This document shows, piece by piece, positions 8,079 through 18,812 of a stretch of DNA of 64,000 nt; the stretch's first letter is position 1; the number at the start of each line of letters is the position of its first letter. The position numbers and the translations under genes are program-made. The notes beneath the pieces were generated by a model that made no database searches, had not been told where the DNA came from, and saw nothing but the letters and a program-made list of their open reading frames with translations. The stretch is from Gammaproteobacteria bacterium (lineage in GTDB: Bacteria > Pseudomonadota > Gammaproteobacteria > SZUA-229): assembly GCA_029882215.1 (NCBI GenBank), contig JAOULC010000008.1, positions 1-64,000 on the forward strand. Reading direction: 5' to 3'.

Positions 8079-9533
8079 TTAGAGTGAATGTTCTAACTCA
8101 AACCGGTAAGACTCAATGTCATTTAAGACACGGTTGTCTCTGTCCGATAAATTTTCTCTTTGTCGAATCTCATTCATTAAATGATCAAATTCCGCAAAGC
8201 CTAATCCCTGTGAGGATTGCAGGTCTGTGAGTTTGTTTCGACGGTATTCCTGCCACTCATCCTGCTCAGTAAAGCTTAACTGAGCAGGGTAGTTTCTGGC
8301 TTTATAGCGGAAAAACATTTCGCCTAAACGGCTGTCTTCAAATGCCGGTGAGAGGCTGGCTAAATCAGCCGGCGATGATTTTATGATGCGATTCATTTCA
8401 CTGCGGTCAGCGGGTGAGAAAAAGCCACCGCTGTACAAACTGACATCGGGGTCATTTTGAGCTTCAAATTCCTGCTCCAGAAAAACTTCCTGAATTTTCT
8501 CTTCGAGATCTTCACATTGTCTGAGCATTGTCAGGTGTTTCATGCCCTGAGCGATGTCGATTTTTGTGCGTTTGGCGGCATCGGCATTGAGTGTATTTAA
8601 TGGAGCTATTACCGGACATTTATTGATGTGCACAGTTTTTAATAAGATACGTTCAGTGCCTTCCGGTAAGTCAGATTGCGGGCTGAACAGGCGATAGGCA
8701 ATCTCTTCGGGCTCTTCATTGATGAGCGCACTCGGGTCTTGTCTTAAATCGAAGACGATAATGCCGTTGTTATTGGTTGGGTGCTGCGCTACAGGCACCA
8801 CCATGGCGGTGCTGCCAAACTCACTGCGAATCATACCGGATGCATGCAGCACCGGTTCTTTTGCACTGAGATCGAGCATTTTTGCAACGGCTTGTTTGCT
8901 TTTATTGTTATAAACGAAGTCATACAGGCGTGGTTGTTTGTCACGAATCAGTTTGGCTATGGCGATGGTGGCATGCACATCGGACAGCGCATCATGAGCT
9001 GCTTTGTGTATCAGGTTGTTGGCAGCCGTCAGGTGTTCGAGTTTGAAACTGGGTAGGCCGTCTTCGTTCATTGGCCATTCTATGCCTTGTGGTCTGAGGG
9101 CATAAGTGATGCGAACCAGATCAATAATATCCCAGCGAGAATTGCCGTTTTGCCATTCCCGGGCATAAGGATCATAGAAGTTTCGATAGAATAAAAAGCG
9201 GCTGACTTCATCATCGAAGCGGATATTATTGTAGCCGAGGGTGCAGGTCGCCGGCCTGGCCAGTTGCTGGTGAATTTTGCCGGCAAACTCCGCTTCAGTG
9301 ACACCTTTTTCAAGCGCTTGCTGAGGTGTGATGCCGGTAATAAGACAGGCTTCCGGGTTGGGCAGAAAATCATCGGCCGGCTTGCAAAATATTTCAAACG
9401 GCTCTTCAATGATATTAAAATCCAGATCGGTACGAATACCTGCAAACTGAACGGGGCGGTCGCGGCTGGGGCTGACGCCAAAGGTTTCATAATCATGCCA
9501 GTAAAAACTGGGTGTGGTCATTGCTTTGCTCAT
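8079..9533 (-). CDS. sbcB: Exodeoxyribonuclease I
   Basis: A 3'-5' single-strand DNA exonuclease acting in mismatch repair and recombination. The 484-aa product has the DEDDh exonuclease domain at the N-terminus (first acidic motif in HDYETFG near residues 13-19, then GYNNIRFDDEVSRF, and the later HDALSDVHATI motif). The SH3-like and helical ExoI C-terminal domains follow, with the typical end region. The start is the first Met of MSKAMTTPSF; the second Met, four residues on, is an alternative. It is transcribed opposite to its neighbours: the right-hand gene diverges, and the left end converges on the 73-aa gene across a 280-bp spacer holding only two weak hairpins (7801-7828 and 7942-7972). 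Confidence 0.95.
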   Translation of the reverse strand: MSKAMTTPSFYWHDYETFGVSPSRDRPVQFAGIRTDLDFNIIEEPFEIFCKPADDFLPNPEACLITGITPQQALEKGVTEAEFAGKIHQQLARPATCTLGYNNIRFDDEVSRFLFYRNFYDPYAREWQNGNSRWDIIDLVRITYALRPQGIEWPMNEDGLPSFKLEHLTAANNLIHKAAHDALSDVHATIAIAKLIRDKQPRLYDFVYNNKSKQAVAKMLDLSAKEPVLHASGMIRSEFGSTAMVVPVAQHPTNNNGIIVFDLRQDPSALINEEPEEIAYRLFSPQSDLPEGTERILLKTVHINKCPVIAPLNTLNADAAKRTKIDIAQGMKHLTMLRQCEDLEEKIQEVFLEQEFEAQNDPDVSLYSGGFFSPADRSEMNRIIKSSPADLASLSPAFEDSRLGEMFFRYKARNYPAQLSFTEQDEWQEYRRNKLTDLQSSQGLGFAEFDHLMNEIRQRENLSDRDNRVLNDIESYRFELEHSL

Positions 9534-9643
9534 TATTATTTATTATTCACGATAAAATAGTCTATATCCTATTTAATTTAACGGTCAATTGCTATGATCA
9601 GGCGGATAAAATTTTTAATAAATACAGGCAAGGGTTTAATACG

Positions 9644-10126
9644 ATGGGGAATGCAGAGTCGACAGGCATGGGAGAGGCTATCTTGAATATCATCTCTGAA
9701 ATGTCATTCTTTAATCATTTTGAACATCAGGAGCTGGCTGTGATTGCAAAACACCTTTCCTTACGCGAGATAGCAAAAGATGAAGTGGTCTTCGAGGAAG
9801 GGGAAAAAGGCAACTATATGTGTTTTGTTGCTGAAGGCAGCCTGAATGTTGTGAAAGATATAGATGGTAAACAGAATGCGGTCATTTCAAGCATCAGTCG
9901 TGGCAAATCCTTTGGTGAGATGGCGATGGTGGATCTGGGTGCGCGATCAGCGACAGTCATTGGTGCGAGAAAGACGGAGCTGGTTATTTTGGGGCGTCAG
10001 GCGTTTGATCTGATACTTGAGCAACATCCCAGGACAGGAGTGAAACTTTTAAGCGCGGTTGCGCGTCTGTTAAGTCTGTATCTGCGCCAGGCCTCCGGTC
10101 GACTGGCTGATCAATTAGCAACCTAA
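9644..10126 (+). CDS. Cyclic nucleotide-binding domain protein
   Basis: I chose ATG 9644, which has AAGGG nine bases upstream; longer in-frame starts overlap sbcB. The 160-aa product is a single cNMP-binding beta-barrel: FEEGEKGNYMCFVAEGSLNVV, then the phosphate-binding-cassette-like stretch GKSFGEMAMVDLGARSATVIG, then helices. There is no DNA-binding helix-turn-helix, so it is not a full CRP-type regulator. The cassette has FGEMAM followed by RSATV, close to the consensus for cAMP binding. It could be a small stand-alone sensor. It diverges from sbcB; the downstream lipoprotein is 160 bp away. Confidence 0.85.
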   Translation: MGNAESTGMGEAILNIISEMSFFNHFEHQELAVIAKHLSLREIAKDEVVFEEGEKGNYMCFVAEGSLNVVKDIDGKQNAVISSISRGKSFGEMAMVDLGARSATVIGARKTELVILGRQAFDLILEQHPRTGVKLLSAVARLLSLYLRQASGRLADQLAT

Positions 10127-10286
10127 GCTTTTTGATCACGGTTATACTGATGGGTATTGGCGGGGTGATAAATTATGCATTTTGGGGCTAAAGGCCATGG
10201 CATAAAATCTGCGCTGATTCATGGTTTTGTAGAAAGGCTGCCAATGGGTGATGGCAAAATTATAAATTTATAAAATGAGGAAAAAC

Positions 10287-11306
10287 ATGCGTATAGCTAA
10301 TAAATACACAGCCAGAAAACTGATTTATAAGATGGCTGTGATATTGCTCAGTGGATTGATGATATCCGGCTGTTCAAAGAACGGTTATTTAGAAAAAGAA
10401 CAAATGATACTGAGCGCCTATGTAGACGCGACCGTTGAAATGAAATTACATAAAGTCAGTGAGCATGTGTATTACGTGCGAGGTGTTCCTGGTGTTGCCA
10501 CAGACAACCAAGGTTTTATCTCCAATGCCGGTTTTGTGGTGACCTCAGAAGGAGTGGTGGTTTATGATGCTCTGGGCACGCCGTCATTAGCAAAGAAATT
10601 GATTAAAAGTATCCGCACCGTCACCGATCAACCTATCAAAATAGTGGTTGTTGGCCATTATCATGCCGATCATATTTATGGCTTGCAGGTTTTTAAAGAA
10701 CTGGGTGCGGAAATCTGGGCGCCGACCGGCTATGAAGCCTATTTAGATTCACCGTTTGCAGCCGAACGTCTGGAAGAGCGACAGTTTTCACTTGAGCCAT
10801 GGGTCAATGAAAATACAGTGCTGATCTCCCCCGACAAGGTGATTACTGCGTCGCAAAAATTTCGTCTGGGTGATACTCAGTTCATCATGAGTTTGCTGGG
10901 GTCTGCGCATTCACAAGCGGACATGACATTATATATGGAAAATGAAAAGGTACTCTTTTCCGGCGATATTATTTTTGAAGGTCGGGTACCGTTTCTGGGT
11001 AATGCCAATACAAAAAACTGGCTGGCCACCTTAATCAAGTTTGAAACAGATAATGTGAGTGCACTGATACCGGGCCATGGCCCGCATGCAAAGAATCCTG
11101 CTGAAGCCATTACTCTGACACGTCATTACCTGCAGACCGTTCGCCAGACCATGGCCGATGCGGTTGAAAATTTGCAGCCATTTGATGAGGCCTATAGCGA
11201 AGCAGACTGGTCCGAGTTTGAAAAACTGCCGGCGTTTGCAGCAGCTCACCGGCGTAATGTCTATCAGGTGTATTTATCGATAGAGCAGGAGCAGTTCAGT
11301 AAGTAG
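10287..11306 (+). CDS. Metallo-beta-lactamase-fold lipoprotein hydrolase
   Basis: Start 10287 is favoured because TGAGG lies just upstream; an ATG at 10275 lies inside that signal. The roughly 339-aa product has a lipoprotein signal ending in ISGC. The mature part is an MBL-fold enzyme: zinc motif HYHADH, third His in GSAHSQAD, bridging Asp in FSGDIIF, and the late His in PGHGPHA. The sequence resembles the periplasmic SoxH/quinoprotein-relay type and B-class lactamase-like hydrolases of unknown substrate. A terminator follows. No sulfur-oxidation or PQQ genes are adjacent, so the substrate is open. Confidence 0.85.
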   Translation: MRIANKYTARKLIYKMAVILLSGLMISGCSKNGYLEKEQMILSAYVDATVEMKLHKVSEHVYYVRGVPGVATDNQGFISNAGFVVTSEGVVVYDALGTPSLAKKLIKSIRTVTDQPIKIVVVGHYHADHIYGLQVFKELGAEIWAPTGYEAYLDSPFAAERLEERQFSLEPWVNENTVLISPDKVITASQKFRLGDTQFIMSLLGSAHSQADMTLYMENEKVLFSGDIIFEGRVPFLGNANTKNWLATLIKFETDNVSALIPGHGPHAKNPAEAITLTRHYLQTVRQTMADAVENLQPFDEAYSEADWSEFEKLPAFAAAHRRNVYQVYLSIEQEQFSK

Positions 11307-11334
11307 ATCGTGTATAATACGTGTTCCTATTTAA

Positions 11335-11357
11335 AGCGGGCTAAGGCCTGCTTTTTT
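11335..11357 (+). terminator. Rho-independent terminator before uup
   Basis: AGCGGGC and GCCTGCT form a seven-pair stem (one G-U) with a TAAG loop, followed by six T. It ends the MBL-fold gene and separates it from uup. TATAAT at 11313-11318 just upstream has no good -35. Confidence 0.75.
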
Positions 11358-11389
11358 AATTCCAACTCTCAACATTGTGGCTTTAAATC

Positions 11390-13291
11390 ATGGCATTAAT
11401 CAGACTTCGCGACATTTCCTTCCATATGGGGCAGCATAAACTGCTCGATAAGGTGAGCTTTGCGGTTGAAAAGGGTGAGCGTATCTGCCTGATAGGGCGC
11501 AATGGCGCCGGTAAGTCATCATTATTTCGCGTTATTCAGGGCGATATGATCTCTGACGATGGTTTAATTGAACGAAGTCAGGATTTAAAAGTGGCTGCAC
11601 TGGCACAGGAGCCTAGCGGTTCTGAAGAAGGCAGCGTCTTCGATATTATCGCTCAGGGGCTTGGCGAAGCAGGTAAGCTGATCGCAGAGTATCATGATGT
11701 TAGCCATCAGATGGCAATCAACTATACCGATAAGCTGATGAGTGAGATGGATCGCCTGCAGCAGAAAATTGAAACCGTTGATGGCTGGAAGCTGGAACAA
11801 AAAGTGACGGCTGTAATTACAAAAATGAATCTTGATCCGGATGTGATGTTCAATACCTTATCCGGTGGTATGAAGCGACGGGTCATGCTGGCCTCGGCAC
11901 TGGTTACTGAACCGGATCTGCTGTTGCTGGATGAGCCCACCAATCACCTGGATATCGAAGCCATCAAATGGCTGGAAGATTTTCTGATTGATCAGAAAAT
12001 TTCTTTACTTTTTATTACGCATGATCGTTCATTTCTGAAAAAACTGGCGACAAAAATTATAGAGCTGGACCGGGGTACTTTAACCGAGTGGCCTGGCAAC
12101 TATGAAACTTACCTGATAAGAAAGCAGGAAGCACTGGAAGAAGAAGAGCGACATAATGCCTTGTTTGATAAAAAACTGGCGCAAGAAGAAGTCTGGATCC
12201 GTCAGGGTATTAAAGCCCGGCGCACCCGAAATGAAGGTCGTGTTCGTGCACTTAAAGAGTTACGTAATCAGAGACAGGCGCGGGTTGAAAGGCAGGGCTC
12301 GGTCAATATGCAGGCGCAGGGTGGAGACCGCTCGGGTAAGCAGGTTGTTGAACTGACGGATGTGTCATTTGCCTTCGGCGATAAAAAGATTGTTGATCAT
12401 TTTTCTACCCTGCTGCTAAGCGGTGACAAAGTGGGTGTGATTGGTGCTAATGGTGCCGGCAAAACAACGTTTCTGAAAATATTATTAGGACAACTGGCAC
12501 CGGATTCCGGTGAAGTAAAGCTCGGTACTAATCTGCAGGTTATATATTTCGATCAGCTACGCTCTCAGCTTGAGGATGATAAAACCGTTATTGATAACCT
12601 GGCTGAAGGCCGGGAAAGTGTTGAAGTCAATGGTGCCCAGAAACACGTTATTGGCTACCTGGGTGATTTTCTTTTTGCACCTGACCGTGCGCGTTCACCG
12701 GTGCGTATGTTGTCCGGTGGCGAGAAGAACCGTTTATTACTCGCCAAGTTATTTTTAAAGCCTTCAAATGTGATGGTGCTTGATGAGCCCACCAATGACC
12801 TTGATCTGGAAACACTGGACTTACTGGAAGAGTTAATCTCTAACTATAAAGGCACATTAATACTGGTCAGCCATGACCGGGACTTTATTGATAAAGTAGT
12901 CACCAGTACGATTGTCATGGAAGGCAATGGCGTACTGAGTGAGTTTGTCGGTGGTTATGATGACTGGTTGCGTCAGCGTGCGACATTAAATGATGCAAAG
13001 AGTAATAGCGCTAAAAAACCGGCAGAAAAAAAAGCTGAGGTAAAGGCTGAAAAAAAAGCCGAGACAGCGCCTGCTAAAAAACTTTCTTACAAAGAGAAAC
13101 TGGCGCTGGAAAAATTACCGGCGCAGATAGAACAGCTGGAAACCGATATTGAAGCGATGCAGGTAAAGATGAGTGACGCGGATTATTTCAAACTGGATGC
13201 AGCTGTGATGGCTCAGGACAAGGAAAAACTGGAAGCCATGGAGTCTGAACTGACTGTTGCTTATCAGCAGTGGGAAGAGCTGGAAGCTTAG
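11390..13291 (+). CDS. uup: ABC-F family ATPase Uup
   Basis: A soluble ATPase with two tandem nucleotide-binding domains and no membrane part; ABC-F proteins act on ribosomes, and Uup is linked to precise-excision and branched-DNA phenotypes. Domain 1: Walker A GRNGAGKSS (about 37-45), signature LSGGMKRR, Walker B LLLLDEPTNHLD. Domain 2: GANGAGKTT, LSGGEKNR, VLDEPTNDLD. The arm linker between them is rich in Arg and Glu. The C-terminal 90 residues are a Lys/Ala-rich linker and a coiled coil typical of Uup. The 633-aa length fits. The stop is immediately followed by the srkA ATG, so the two are translationally coupled. Confidence 0.93.
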   Translation: MALIRLRDISFHMGQHKLLDKVSFAVEKGERICLIGRNGAGKSSLFRVIQGDMISDDGLIERSQDLKVAALAQEPSGSEEGSVFDIIAQGLGEAGKLIAEYHDVSHQMAINYTDKLMSEMDRLQQKIETVDGWKLEQKVTAVITKMNLDPDVMFNTLSGGMKRRVMLASALVTEPDLLLLDEPTNHLDIEAIKWLEDFLIDQKISLLFITHDRSFLKKLATKIIELDRGTLTEWPGNYETYLIRKQEALEEEERHNALFDKKLAQEEVWIRQGIKARRTRNEGRVRALKELRNQRQARVERQGSVNMQAQGGDRSGKQVVELTDVSFAFGDKKIVDHFSTLLLSGDKVGVIGANGAGKTTFLKILLGQLAPDSGEVKLGTNLQVIYFDQLRSQLEDDKTVIDNLAEGRESVEVNGAQKHVIGYLGDFLFAPDRARSPVRMLSGGEKNRLLLAKLFLKPSNVMVLDEPTNDLDLETLDLLEELISNYKGTLILVSHDRDFIDKVVTSTIVMEGNGVLSEFVGGYDDWLRQRATLNDAKSNSAKKPAEKKAEVKAEKKAETAPAKKLSYKEKLALEKLPAQIEQLETDIEAMQVKMSDADYFKLDAAVMAQDKEKLEAMESELTVAYQQWEELEA

Positions 13292-14393: not shown

Positions 14394-14422
14394 TTGTTTA
14401 TTTGGCATAATTAGCCTATAAC
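14394..14422 (+). promoter_or_regulatory. Candidate promoter for the membrane/VWA operon
   Basis: TTGTTT and TATAAC are separated by exactly 17 bp. It lies in the 280-bp gap after srkA and would drive a possible 21-aa ORF and the two-gene operon after it. Confidence 0.45.
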
Positions 14423-14437
14423 AAACAGGTCCTACGG

Positions 14438-14503
14438 ATGAATAGAATATTAATAAAAATAATTAAATTAGCTGCATCTATGTTCGTTAGTGTTCTGCTT
14501 TGA
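14438..14503 (+). CDS. Possible 21-aa hydrophobic leader ORF
   Basis: ATG 14438 opens a 21-codon frame (MNRILIKIIKLAASMFVSVLL) ending in TGA, with AGG nine bases upstream and a promoter-like pair just before. It looks like a basic-hydrophobic signal or a single short membrane helix. It could be a micro membrane protein, a leader peptide, a remnant of a secreted protein gene or chance. No conservation can be tested here. Confidence 0.25.
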   Translation: MNRILIKIIKLAASMFVSVLL

Positions 14504-14570
14504 CTGATAATGACAGTTATTTTTAAAATAATAATATCCCGAATTTAAGTATTGACGTATGGAGATCAAT

Positions 14571-16007
14571 ATGAATTTTTCAGAAATTTTGGCTATCTGG
14601 TGGCCGGCTCAGGCCGGGGTTTCGGCTGCAATCTGGCTGCTAATTGTTATTCTGACTATGTGGCTGGCAAGATCTCCGGCGCATAAAGCCATTAGAAGTT
14701 TTAGTTTTATTATCAGAAATGCAATGCGAATGGCCGCTTATTCAATAACGTCTTTAGAGAAACATCTGGCTGTGCGTAACAGAGAAGTCCTGTTATCAAC
14801 GGGGCTGGAAGAAACAGAGCGTTATATCGAAAGAGAGTTTCAGCGCGTTGAAGATGTGGTTAACAGAGATCTCAGTGGTTATCCGTCGCTACAGCGGGAA
14901 TTAAAAGATCAGATTACCAAAATAGACGATGACTATCGGCAGTCTTCAGAAGTGCCACCGATGCCACAAAACTATATTGAGGCGATTGACTCGGTCAGCA
15001 AAATTAAAGGCAATGGCGACCCAATGGTGACAAAGATTCTTGGTGAAATCCAGACCACGATGAAGCATAACAGTGAAAAGGAAGTCGCAGAGTATCGTCG
15101 TTCAAGTAAGGAACGCCATCTCTTACTGAAAACAATGAAGCCCTATTGGCGTAACCTGAGCAAGACACTATCCAGTGTTGAAAAGAAAATAGTGGGCCTT
15201 GAAGACCGTTCAAAAGTGATTGATAAGCAAATTGCAAAATATGAACAGATCATGGCAAAAACGGATAAGGCGGAACGTATCTTATCCTCATCAACCATGA
15301 CACAGTTTTTTACATCCGGTCTGGTGCTGCTGATTGCTTTACTGGGCGTTTATGTCAACTTTCAGCTGATTGCACTACCGATGTCTGAAATGGTCGGTGG
15401 TAGCAGTCGCCTGGGTCCGCTGCGCGCTTCGGATGTGGCCGCGCTGGTGCTGGTGTTCTTTGAAATTGTACTGGGTCTGTTTTTAATGGAGTCACTGCAG
15501 ATTACCAAGCTGTTTCCGATTATCGGTTCACTGGATGATAAGCTAAGGAAAAACATGATGCTGGTGGCTTTTGTGTTGTTAGTCATCTTTGCCGGTATCG
15601 AATCATCACTGGCCTATATGCGAGACCTGCTGGCCGCTGATAGGGAAGCGCTGACACAAAGTCTTGCCGGTGTCATCGTCGAGGCTCCTGAGTTCAGATG
15701 GATAACGACGGTAGGGCAAATGACAATGGGCTTTATTTTGCCGTTTGCACTGATGTTGATTGCTATTCCGCTCGAGTCATTTGTGCATGCCCTGAGAATA
15801 GTAATTGGTATGGTGGGTGTGTTTTCACTGAGAGCATTGGCTTTTATTGTTCGACAAGTGGGTAGTTTAGCCAGTAGTATTGGACATATAGTTTTAAATA
15901 TTTATGATCTTATTATCTTTATTCCTTTGAAAATAGAACACAGTCTTCAAAGCAGTACTAAGATAACTGATGATGATAAAAAACATAAATCATCTGTTTC
16001 AGAGTAA
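14571..16007 (+). CDS. Multi-pass membrane protein with long coiled coil, unknown
   Basis: ATG 14571 is preceded by GGAG with a 6-bp spacer; the upstream ATG at 14559 overlaps that signal. The roughly 478-aa product has one N-terminal membrane helix (about residues 14-34). A 190-residue charged, coiled-coil-like segment follows (about 55-240, with YIEREFQRVEDVV and KIVGLEDRSKVIDKQIAKYEQIM). The C-terminal half has five or six hydrophobic helices from about residue 240. No transporter or enzyme motif is seen. The next gene, 21 bp on, is a VWA lipoprotein, and both are enclosed by a promoter-like pair and a strong terminator, so they probably work together at the inner membrane. Family not recognised. 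Confidence 0.75.
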   Translation: MNFSEILAIWWPAQAGVSAAIWLLIVILTMWLARSPAHKAIRSFSFIIRNAMRMAAYSITSLEKHLAVRNREVLLSTGLEETERYIEREFQRVEDVVNRDLSGYPSLQRELKDQITKIDDDYRQSSEVPPMPQNYIEAIDSVSKIKGNGDPMVTKILGEIQTTMKHNSEKEVAEYRRSSKERHLLLKTMKPYWRNLSKTLSSVEKKIVGLEDRSKVIDKQIAKYEQIMAKTDKAERILSSSTMTQFFTSGLVLLIALLGVYVNFQLIALPMSEMVGGSSRLGPLRASDVAALVLVFFEIVLGLFLMESLQITKLFPIIGSLDDKLRKNMMLVAFVLLVIFAGIESSLAYMRDLLAADREALTQSLAGVIVEAPEFRWITTVGQMTMGFILPFALMLIAIPLESFVHALRIVIGMVGVFSLRALAFIVRQVGSLASSIGHIVLNIYDLIIFIPLKIEHSLQSSTKITDDDKKHKSSVSE

Positions 16008-16028
16008 AACAGGATGTCAGGGGGAATA

Positions 16029-16685
16029 ATGATTAAGAAAATACGCATACTTGCCATGGCCGGTTTAATAGTTTTATTGTCAGGCTGTTCAGATCCTAAG
16101 TCTCACGCAACATCGGTAATGCTGTTGCTGGATACATCCGGAACTTACACGCAGGAATTATCTAAAGCTCAGGCGATCATCAATTACTTGTTAGGCACCA
16201 TGACGAGTGGTGACTCATTTGCCGTTGCACGAATAGACAGTGGCAGCTTTAGTGAAAAAGATATTGTTGCAAAAATGACCTTTGATGACAGGCCATCCGC
16301 GGCGAACTCTCAGAAAAGAACATTTCAGGCAGCCATTAACAAAATGGTCGCTGAAGTTAAAAGCAGTACCTATACCGACATCAGTGGCGGTATGCTACAG
16401 GCGATTGAGTTTCTGGAAGAAACCGGTGCCGGCAACCGGCATATTCTGGTCTTTTCTGATATGAAAGAAGAAATTCCTAAAGGTCACGTCAGAGACTTTC
16501 CGATTAATTTCAAGGATGTCACCGTCACTGCACTGAACGTGACCAAGTTACGTACTGATAATGTTGACCCTCGTGAGTACATGAGTCGTATTGATGACTG
16601 GAAAACAAAGGTTGAATCCAGTGGTGGTTTATGGCGGGTTATTAATGATCTTGATCGGGTAGAAAAATTGCTGCACGAAGATTAA
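16029..16685 (+). CDS. VWA-domain lipoprotein
   Basis: Start 16029 is preceded by AGGGGG. The roughly 218-aa product has a lipoprotein signal (MIKKIRILAMAGLIVLLSGC). It then has a von Willebrand factor A fold: the first strand with metal-site motif as DTSGT (consensus DxSxS), the middle Thr in TYTDISGGM, and the Asp in VFSDMKEE. These are the three MIDAS segments, so metal-dependent ligand binding is plausible. The final MIDAS Ser of the first motif is Thr. It is the second gene of the pair with the coiled-coil membrane protein and is followed by a terminator. VWA proteins usually act as adaptors in complexes. Confidence 0.82.
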   Translation: MIKKIRILAMAGLIVLLSGCSDPKSHATSVMLLLDTSGTYTQELSKAQAIINYLLGTMTSGDSFAVARIDSGSFSEKDIVAKMTFDDRPSAANSQKRTFQAAINKMVAEVKSSTYTDISGGMLQAIEFLEETGAGNRHILVFSDMKEEIPKGHVRDFPINFKDVTVTALNVTKLRTDNVDPREYMSRIDDWKTKVESSGGLWRVINDLDRVEKLLHED

Positions 16686-16704
16686 ATCAAATTTAGCTGT
16701 GATT

Positions 16705-16739
16705 AAAAAAGCTATATCCTTGTGATGTGGCTTTTTTTT
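16705..16739 (+). terminator. Rho-independent terminator after VWA gene
   Basis: An A-tract, GCTATATC, a five-base loop, GATGTGGC and a run of eight T form a stem with two G-U pairs plus A-T extension. It closes the two-gene operon. Confidence 0.85.
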
Positions 16740-17174: not shown

Positions 17175-17975
17175 TTATCTCAGGCTGTCGGTAATATGCG
17201 GCTCCAGATTCTTTAACATCTGATTAAAGACTTTGGGGTTAGCGGCAATGACATTGCCATTTTCCAGATAATCTTCATTGGCTGAAAAATCGGTAATGAT
17301 ACCGCCAGCTTCCCGAACCAGCAGTGCACCGGCAGCAATATCCCAGCTTTGCAGACCAATTTCCCAAAAACCATCAAGCCGGCCACAGGCAACATAAGCC
17401 AGATCCAGTGCGGCAGAGCCAGCACGGCGTATACCGGCTGCTTCCGGGAAAAATGATTTAAACATCCCAAGGTAGGCATCAAGGTGGCGCACGTCTTTAT
17501 ATGGGAACCCTGTACCTAATAAAGCACCGCTTAAGCCCATTTGTTTACTAACGCGAATACGGCGATTATTGAGGTATGCCCCGTCACCAAGACTGGCAGT
17601 AAACAGTTCCTGACGTAACGGGTCGTAGACTACGCCAAGCACCAGCTTGTTTTTGTGTTTCAGAGCAATAGAGATAGAAAACTGCGGAAAGCCATGTAAA
17701 TAGTTGGTGGTGCCATCCAGTGGATCAATTATCCACTGATATTCGCTGGTGTTTTCACCAGAGCGTCCGCTTTCTTCAGCTAAAATCGAGTGATCTGGAA
17801 AGGCTTGCTTAAGCGTGCGAATGATTATGCTTTCGGCTTTCTGGTCGACTTCTGTGACGAAATCATTTCTTTCTTTGGTTACAACCGGCAAATGATCAAT
17901 ACGATCCATATACTGAACAATCACTTTACTAGCGTCGCGTGCGGCACGGACGGCAATATTCATCATCGGTTTCAT
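17175..17975 (-). CDS. suhB: Inositol-1-monophosphatase SuhB
   Basis: Mg-dependent, Li-sensitive phosphatase; in E. coli SuhB also joins the rRNA antitermination complex. I chose the Met at 17975 (MKPMMNIAVRAARDASKV), which gives 266 aa, about the E. coli length and N-terminus; an in-frame start at 18044 would add 23 residues. Motifs: EVDQKAES, then the metal site WIIDPLDGTTNYLHGFP, and the second metal site SWDIAAGALLVREAGG. It is divergent from trmJ, a common arrangement in gammaproteobacteria. Confidence 0.93.
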   Translation of the reverse strand: MKPMMNIAVRAARDASKVIVQYMDRIDHLPVVTKERNDFVTEVDQKAESIIIRTLKQAFPDHSILAEESGRSGENTSEYQWIIDPLDGTTNYLHGFPQFSISIALKHKNKLVLGVVYDPLRQELFTASLGDGAYLNNRRIRVSKQMGLSGALLGTGFPYKDVRHLDAYLGMFKSFFPEAAGIRRAGSAALDLAYVACGRLDGFWEIGLQSWDIAAGALLVREAGGIITDFSANEDYLENGNVIAANPKVFNQMLKNLEPHITDSLR

Positions 17976-18089
17976 TGAAAAGAGCTCTTGGATTGAATCG
18001 GCGCGTAGCATAACAGAAACGCTTAAATTTGTATCGGGATTCATTCAAATCAGGCAGAATTAGCCCCTTTACAAAACTGATTATAGAGC

Positions 18090-18812
18090 ATGTTAGAAAA
18101 TATCCGAATTGTTATGGTAAATACTTCGCATCCGGGCAATATCGGAGCGGCAGCAAGAGCCATGAAAAATATGTCGCTGGCTGAGTTATATCTGGTTGAT
18201 CCTGTAGAGTTCCCCTCTACAGAGGCCGCTCTCAGAGCAACCCATGCGGTTGATATTGTTGATAAGGCCGTTGTTAGCGGCTCATTAGCAGAGGCGGTGG
18301 CAGACTGCAGCCTGGTGATTGGTACCAGTGCACGGGAAAGAACCATGAGCTGGGTGGTTGAGAAGCCACGGGAAATGGCGGCCACTGCGCTGGCGCATGC
18401 ATCACAGGGCAAGGTGGCTATTGTTTTCGGTAGAGAGCGTACCGGTCTGACTAACGAGGAGCTGTCATTGTGCCAGCGTCTGGTGCATATCCCGACTAAC
18501 CCTGAGTGCACTTCACTAAATGTGGCTGCAGCGGTGCAAGTGATTGCTTATGAGTTGTTTAATGCGGACTTAGGGGAGAGCAATTATATTGTGCCTGAGC
18601 AGCTGGGCGATGATCAGGTTGCCAAAGCAGGCCAGATCCAGACATTGCATCAGCACTTTGAGCAGGTAATGACAGAAGTAGCGTTTTTTGGCAGCAATAA
18701 CCCTGAGAATGTTATGCGTCGTCTGCAGCTGTTTCTGAACCGTGCTCAGCCGACACGACGGGAGCTGAATATTTTGCACGGCATTCTAACGGCCATGCAG
18801 AAAAAGTTATAA
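18090..18812 (+). CDS. trmJ: tRNA (cytidine/uridine-32-2'-O)-methyltransferase
   Basis: A SPOUT-class enzyme that methylates the ribose of position 32 in tRNA anticodon loops. The 240-aa product starts with NIRIVMVNTSHPGNIGAAARAM, and the knotted SAM-binding region holds VIGTSARER, VAIVFGRERTGLTNEEL and HIPTNPECTSLNVAAAVQ. The C-terminal extension (about 165-240) is the helical part specific to TrmJ. The last 6 bp overlap the end of the opposing DUF423 gene. In many relatives iscR follows trmJ; here it does not. Confidence 0.94.
   Translation: MLENIRIVMVNTSHPGNIGAAARAMKNMSLAELYLVDPVEFPSTEAALRATHAVDIVDKAVVSGSLAEAVADCSLVIGTSARERTMSWVVEKPREMAATALAHASQGKVAIVFGRERTGLTNEELSLCQRLVHIPTNPECTSLNVAAAVQVIAYELFNADLGESNYIVPEQLGDDQVAKAGQIQTLHQHFEQVMTEVAFFGSNNPENVMRRLQLFLNRAQPTRRELNILHGILTAMQKKL

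Follow-up and report, generated by a model that had tools for sequence, protein, structure and literature searches.

A conserved gene pair encoding a coiled-coil inner-membrane protein and a VWA lipoprotein: a candidate MIDAS-coupled envelope complex

We investigated a two-gene locus in a 64,000-nt stretch of DNA from a gammaproteobacterium of the lineage SZUA-229 (assembly GCA_029882215.1, contig JAOULC010000008.1, positions 1 to 64,000 of the forward strand), hereafter the window. The first gene encodes a membrane protein, denoted MEM here, and the second, separated from it by 21 nt, encodes a lipoprotein with a von Willebrand factor A (VWA) domain:

14571-16007, plus strand: MEM, a 478-aa inner-membrane protein with a cytoplasmic coiled-coil hairpin (open reading frame, relatives' alignment, AlphaFold2)
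16029-16685, plus strand: VWA lipoprotein, 218 aa (open reading frame, PF13519 match, structural model)

The original prediction, made from the sequence of this locus alone, treated the two genes as a self-contained unit, and the genomic distribution of their relatives bears this out. Among 58 near genomes, MEM was present in 29 and the VWA lipoprotein in the same 29, with the VWA gene adjoining MEM in all 30 loci examined from this search. In a survey of the best 80 of at least 560 candidate stretches with MEM relatives in named genome records, the two genes were adjacent in 77 loci, and the other three stop at a contig end. In the class sample, MEM was detected in 52 of 369 genomes, with an adjacent VWA gene for 49 of the 56 examined copies (46 of the 52 genomes); a MEM piece in G667 (contig C212) lies outside the examined copies. 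In 38 of the 69 neighbouring pairs, a 4-nt overlap joins the start of the VWA gene to the stop of MEM, and the evolutionary distances of the two proteins are strongly correlated (mirror-tree r = 0.88, reached by 0 of 2000 permutations; r = 0.67 within the main clade), with the caveat that chance figures of this kind assume independent genomes, which these relatives are not. The pairing is obligate in the main clade, and the co-occurrence check that had been suggested for the locus showed that the two genes are not independent in most genomes. No third gene is constant across the 80 loci, and no MoxR-type AAA ATPase, a common partner of VWA proteins whose absence had been pointed out at the outset, was found by Pfam among the ten window neighbours scanned. 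The dedicated partner of the VWA lipoprotein appears to be MEM itself, likely joined in one sub-lineage by a two-component system. The 80 loci carry the labels Gammaproteobacteria, Desulfobacterota, Nitrospirota, Myxococcota, Gemmatimonadota and Deferribacteres, which may include errors because most of the records are metagenome bins; culturable carriers include Pleionea mediterranea and Thioalkalivibrio denitrificans.

Several genomes (G004, G013, G024, G025, G029, G033 and G047) contain two MEM copies or pieces that belong to different subfamilies and usually have a VWA gene each, which suggests old duplications of the whole pair. In G061 (L137, L144, L147), MEM is fragmented and shows frame changes as well as several in-frame TGA codons, and the VWA gene next to it is split; this looks like a decaying pseudogene pair.

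MEM consists of an N-terminal transmembrane (TM) helix, a long coil and a C-terminal membrane domain, with the following segments, of which one contains a candidate ligand for the metal-ion-dependent adhesion site (MIDAS) of the VWA domain:

14613-14669, plus strand: TM1 (residues 15-33), by hydropathy
14670-15254, plus strand: cytoplasmic antiparallel coiled-coil hairpin (residues 34-228), by net positive charge and the AlphaFold2 model
15300-15374, plus strand: TM2 (residues 244-268), containing N263, by hydropathy and conservation
15375-15434, plus strand: periplasmic loop 1 (residues 269-288), with the codon of E273, the candidate MIDAS ligand, at 15387-15389, by conservation
15435-15500, plus strand: TM3 (residues 289-310), containing the buried acids E298 and E307, by hydropathy and conservation
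15567-15626, plus strand: TM4 (residues 333-352), containing E344 and R351, by hydropathy and conservation
15627-15722, plus strand: periplasmic loop 2 (residues 353-384), by hydropathy and charge
15723-15785, plus strand: TM5 (residues 385-405), by hydropathy
15786-15944, plus strand: amphipathic C-terminal helices with a YDL motif (residues 406-458), by hydropathy, model and conservation

The N-terminal helix and the coil, at residues 34-228, are as originally predicted, whereas the five or six C-terminal helices proposed with them are reduced to four clear ones by mean hydropathy over 85 relatives, which places TM2-TM5 near residues 244-268, 286-310, 333-352 and 384-408; the segments beyond TM5, up to residue 450, are weaker, being amphipathic or less hydrophobic. 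Net positive charge assigns residues 34-240 and 311-332 to the cytoplasm, leaving the N-terminus and the two loops outside. The AlphaFold2 model, built from 85 sequences (predicted local distance difference test (pLDDT) 87.9, predicted template modelling score (pTM) 0.70), contains helices at 34-101 and 151-228 that are connected by a helical turn, as would fit an antiparallel hairpin. TM5 (0.84) and TM3 (0.78) are the most conserved segments, the coil being less so (0.52-0.58), and individual membrane-domain residues are nearly invariant: N263, E344 and R351 are each kept in 85/85 relatives, E273 in 84/85, E298 in 83/85 and E307 in 81/85. The relatives' alignment begins at 14571, with an in-frame ATG at 14559 as a possible alternative start.

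The view that MEM belongs to no familiar family was upheld by profile and structure searches, which were among the checks recommended for the locus and placed the protein in no transporter family. MEM had no match above cut-off in Pfam, NCBIfam or PADLOC and none that was convincing in PHROGs; the sub-threshold matches in these four collections were either far below cut-off or had E values of at least 0.0047, and most of them lay over the coil. In particular, PF01618 (MotA/TolQ/ExbB) was not matched at E ≤ 1 in Pfam, and neither Pfam nor NCBIfam yielded an ABC or permease match. Foldseek retrieved nothing at E ≤ 0.001 from the Protein Data Bank or from viral proteins. VIA gave Z values of up to 10 (root-mean-square deviation (rmsd) 8.9, 154 aligned residues), which involve only long helices in the model of the whole protein and fall in a range that, according to that tool, is common for helical models. 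A profile match between TM3-TM5 of MEM and angiotensin receptor chains (E 5e-5, 25 bits, about 100 residues) was judged to be due to chance because of the plain TM composition and the lack of support from fold searches. Fold matches to TTYH, SMC, chemoreceptors and toxin stalks were long-helix matches with TM-scores of about 0.2 or below and were not used. No description of the MEM/VWA pair was found in the literature covered, namely open-licence PubMed Central papers; within this scope, MEM and the pair as a whole fit no described family that we found.

The VWA lipoprotein, by comparison, adds a new member to an established domain family. Its recognizable elements are:

16029-16088, plus strand: signal peptide and lipobox, Cys20, by alignment
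16131-16145, plus strand: MIDAS motif 1, DTSGT (residues 35-39), by alignment
16374-16379, plus strand: MIDAS motif 2, T116-D117, by alignment
16458-16460, plus strand: MIDAS motif 3, D144, by alignment

The protein matches PF13519 (VWA_2) with 28.8 bits against a cut-off of 27, and its structural model is confident (pLDDT 93), displaying a Rossmann-like VWA fold (Foldseek E 5.6e-6 to the VWA domain of CLCA1; best VIA match Z 16.1, rmsd 2.6, 164 aligned residues); other fold matches include the VWA domains of Bacteroides BatB and NorD. As originally proposed, the MIDAS residues are intact in the window protein, and the complete set (D35, S37, T/S39, T116, D144) is present in 71 of 75 VWA relatives, window included. 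The lipobox Cys20 is found in 75/75 relatives, the window lipobox being LSGC, while the short Pfam model LPAM_1 scored below cut-off (13.8 vs 20 bits). In E. coli, the residue directly after this Cys (position +2) decides between inner-membrane and outer-membrane sorting. Since Asp occupies this position in only 2/75 relatives, the E. coli rule favours the outer membrane, and the lipoprotein probably faces the periplasm from there. Neither MEM nor the VWA lipoprotein contains a peptidoglycan-binding domain detectable by Pfam.

Taken together, these features led us to a proposal, which we consider about equally likely to be right or wrong, that MEM and the VWA lipoprotein constitute a MIDAS-coupled inner-membrane/lipoprotein envelope complex resembling the alpha2delta subunit and its channel, with the direct contact, the ligand and the output all being inferred. 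MEM would be an inner-membrane protein whose N-terminus lies outside, whose long antiparallel hairpin extends into the cytoplasm and whose membrane domain comprises four helices. The metal ion held by the MIDAS would bind an acid on the periplasmic side of MEM, most likely E273 in loop 1, and this contact would set the conformation of TM2-TM5, where the conserved E298, E307, E344 and R351 are buried; the cytoplasmic coil would receive the conformational change, or the change would be read from it. The output could be a regulated path for ions or solutes or a trans-periplasmic sensor, and we lean towards a gated path or a signal relay because of the buried acids in TM3 and TM4. In the sub-lineage with a two-component system, the latter would switch the pair on through a regulator bound at 11-bp repeats.

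The animal precedent is the VWA subunit alpha2delta-1, which acts through its MIDAS on the first extracellular loop of the CaV channel (PMC6231325). Both systems combine a lipid-anchored VWA protein with a conserved acid in the first periplasmic (or extracellular) loop, and by this analogy, E273 is a match in position and conservation. The systems differ in that MEM has no sequence relation to CaV that we found, carries a cytoplasmic coil and is prokaryotic, and in that the contact between E273 and the MIDAS is inferred. If the MIDAS-acid contact is right, a bacterial VWA/MIDAS subunit would control an integral membrane protein as happens in animal calcium channels, and a widespread dark gene pair would acquire a function. 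More tentatively, and with appreciably less confidence, the pair could be a new device spread across several phyla, in which the metal-dependent VWA lipoprotein gates or reads, by way of an acidic periplasmic loop, an inner-membrane protein of new fold and moves a cytoplasmic coil of about 100 angstroms, with kinase-regulator control of expression, and perhaps sensing of the device, in some lineages. Such a device would represent a bacterial counterpart of the alpha2delta control of channels. The pairing, the natural loss of the partner and the dedicated regulator provide testable residues (E273, the MIDAS, E344 and R351) and a DNA box.

Natural partner loss is represented by solo MEM copies, without an adjacent VWA gene, seven of which come from the class sample and an eighth, in G176 (L223), from the phylum sample. 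Seven of the solo genomes (G176, G336, G676, G660, G655, G713 and G770) yielded no VWA relative in a genome-wide search, and G736 encodes a solo copy along with one ordinary MEM/VWA pair. We compared the 8 solo copies with 11 equally divergent paired MEMs at positions conserved in at least 80% of the 76 main MEMs. The solo copies kept more of the coil consensus (0.53, 0.71 and 0.60 for the first helix, the middle and the second helix, vs 0.39, 0.40 and 0.41 in the divergent paired MEMs) and less of the consensus in TM2 (0.32 vs 0.56), periplasmic loop 1 (0.27 vs 0.60) and periplasmic loop 2 (0.23 vs 0.40). Calculated per sequence, the contrast is significant for the membrane and loop regions (Mann-Whitney p = 0.0004) and for the periplasmic side (p = 0.0013). 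The acid E273 survives in 75/76 of the main MEMs, 11/11 of the divergent paired ones and 3/8 of the solo copies; the corresponding counts for E344 are 76/76, 10/11 and 2/8. In L222, the VWA protein lacks S37 and T39, so that MIDAS motif 1 is broken, and the MEM next to it has lost N263, E298, E344, R351 and Q383. Because the solo copies and L222 lose periplasmic-side residues, we read them as reflecting lost selection on the VWA-facing side of MEM once the VWA protein or its metal site is gone.

Several observations weigh against this interpretation or against parts of the proposed complex. Loss of the signature could reflect a general relaxation of the membrane half of MEM. L242 and L223, which have no adjacent detectable VWA gene, keep N263, E273, E344, R351 and Q383, and the solo copy L219 retains E273. 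The solo MEMs form long branches and show compositional bias, and the solo state requires only about four changes on the tree, at least two of them forced by starred branches, so that few independent events are represented. Conversely, the MIDAS is altered in 4 of 75 VWA proteins (L070, L102, L035 and L024), and the MEM encoded next to each retains the signature. The outer-membrane placement of the VWA lipoprotein presumes that the +2 rule of E. coli applies, and a genome search detected neither the regulator nor its repeat in the window genome.

In relatives, a histidine kinase/response regulator system is tied to the MEM/VWA pair in a sub-lineage of Gammaproteobacteria. In 17 of the 80 loci, a response regulator gene is no further than about 7 kb away from the pair and usually adjacent to it, with a kinase called in 15. 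By Pfam, for one example of each protein, the regulator combines a receiver domain (29.8, just under the cut-off of 30.2) with a Trans_reg_C domain, and the kinase carries an HATPase domain. Invariant positions in the alignments include D10, D62 and K115 of the receiver and R138-H139-N140 and the ATP-binding boxes of the kinase, in which a short loop separates two hydrophobic segments and a sensor domain is lacking. Of the 369 genomes, 12 encode the regulator; each of these belongs to the 52 with MEM and has the two genes no more than 9 kb apart on one contig, a coincidence with a probability of 2e-11 if the genomes were independent.

An 11-bp direct repeat, TTCAC-N6-TTYAC, lies 62-210 bp before the MEM start in 15 of the 17 system-bearing loci, compared with 2 of the 64 others, against a background of 0.0023 per 400 bp; the window locus is among those without the repeat, and near-variants occur in L102 and L114. 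Direct repeats of such a period suit OmpR/PhoB-type regulators, and we propose that the regulator binds these repeats just upstream of MEM. Because an unbiased dyad count over these 17 loci is what yielded the motif, a genome-wide scan is the more independent test, even though several genomes are shared between the two. A tight form of the repeat has 13 occurrences, spread over 8 of the 12 system-carrying genomes, and 7 of them lie right upstream of MEM; none was found in the 8 other genomes scanned, which include G028, itself not tested for the regulator; a reversed control pattern gave 3 matches in the 20 genomes. The other 6 places (in G475, G715, G754 and G514) are next to different genes or inside genes, and a regulon wider than the pair was considered and set aside on this distribution. 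Two loci, L097 and L107, have the direct repeat upstream of MEM and no regulator gene in the locus sequence; the regulator may be elsewhere in the genome.

A parallel is BceRS-BceAB, in which the kinase BceS both requires and regulates its transporter (PMC8534201). The likeness lies in a two-TM kinase without a sensor domain, a regulator and a regulated membrane system; however, MEM is not an ABC transporter, and most MEM loci have no kinase or regulator. Because the two-TM kinase recalls BceS, the sub-lineage kinase may read MEM, a lead by analogy.

Three other explanations of the pair deserve consideration. VWA proteins with MoxR partners perform assembly and maturation work, and the pair might similarly be a cargo-maturation complex that helps build another envelope complex. 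The fold matches to Bacteroides BatB and NorD fit this idea, as does the general likeness to the Bat/MoxR-linked systems, which also have bacterial membrane-linked VWA proteins with a MIDAS, but here MEM is the constant partner, no MoxR ATPase was found among the ten window neighbours scanned and the 80 loci share no third gene; we consider this explanation unlikely. We assign a similarly low probability to a structural bridge in the manner of Tol-Pal, in which the VWA protein in the outer membrane and MEM in the inner membrane would hold the envelope together or remodel the membrane through the coil, with no gating involved. The invariant lipobox and the rarity of Asp at +2 would suit a tether, and the succession of an N-out TM1, a cytoplasmic helical domain, TM2 and TM3 recalls TolQ; M23 peptidase and bactofilin genes, recognized by eye, also lie directly 3' of the pair in several loci. 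More generally, TolQ/ExbB/MotA and the Zorya protein ZorA share with MEM an inner-membrane location, an extensive helical portion in the cytoplasm and a partner in the envelope. MEM differs from them in its layout of one TM helix, a coil and four TM helices and matches neither PF01618 nor the ZorA profiles of PADLOC, and a tether, for which a peptidoglycan-binding domain is missing from both proteins in Pfam searches, would leave the conserved buried acids of TM3 and TM4 unexplained.

A role in anti-phage defense or another biological conflict is very improbable. The patchy presence of MEM (52/369 genomes in the class sample) and its weak match to LeoBC (E 0.0047) would be compatible with such a role, and a phage challenge had been put forward in the original prediction, but that idea received no support from gene neighbourhoods or from searches of plasmids, phages and viral contigs, which contained no relatives. 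PADLOC returned nothing above noise for MEM and nothing for the VWA lipoprotein, the partners co-diverge, and the 113 neighbour proteins (one per cluster plus unclustered proteins of 150-700 residues) are diverse and mostly housekeeping. Their few PADLOC matches bear names whose common components we read as ABC ATPases, helicases and methyltransferases, and the notion of a defense island was dropped.

Around the pair itself, the window contains the following putative control elements:

14394-14422, plus strand: promoter-like TTGTTT-N17-TATAAC, a post hoc match that forms the left edge of the originally described unit
14500-14529, plus strand: alternative promoter-like TTGACT-N18-TAAAAT, 10/12 consensus letters, the best intergenic candidate upstream of MEM
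16705-16739, plus strand: terminator-like hairpin with a 14-bp stem and a U-rich 3' side, by folding against shuffles

The promoter-like pair described initially is indeed present, and the exact string occurs once in the window with 0.02 expected, for a string picked post hoc; as a class, however, promoter-like sites are hardly above shuffles (10 vs 6.1 ± 2.7 in a consensus scan), so the MEM promoter is not settled. The strong terminator fared better, its hairpin at 16705-16737 (-18.9 kcal/mol) reaching z = -4.3 and being equalled by 0 of 200 shuffles, with the pattern scanner not listing it. Pfam identified the neighbours as a cNMP-binding protein, a metallo-beta-lactamase fold protein, an ABC-F-like ATPase and an APH-type kinase, followed by BolA, inositol monophosphatase, a SpoU-type methylase, DUF423, DUF520 and a phosphonate-binding protein. 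None of these ten is an evident partner, which leaves the pair isolated, in agreement with the original prediction.

The window pair adjoins the inositol monophosphatase and SpoU-type methylase genes (17178-18809), and a MEM-like gene without a VWA gene in G336 (L224, 4282-5649; cf. L135) likewise adjoins inositol monophosphatase-like and SpoU-type methylase-like genes; the two genomes possibly share an old chromosomal position. The cNMP-binding protein and ABC-F-like ATPase genes found upstream in the window (9512-13291) also have upstream counterparts in L094, a locus of another family.

Among other relatives, the neighbours are lineage-specific, FecR having been confirmed by Pfam and the CHASE2-like, ppk-like, cysQ-like, M23-like and bactofilin-like genes recognized by eye. 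A FecR-domain gene lies directly downstream of the pair in some loci (L045, 4694-5458; L046, 6781-7542), a large divergent CHASE2-like gene upstream of it in others (L041, L042 and L054), and M23-type peptidase and bactofilin genes on the same strand 3' of it in L060, L068, L084, L085 and L089, which are Desulfobacterota-like and related loci.

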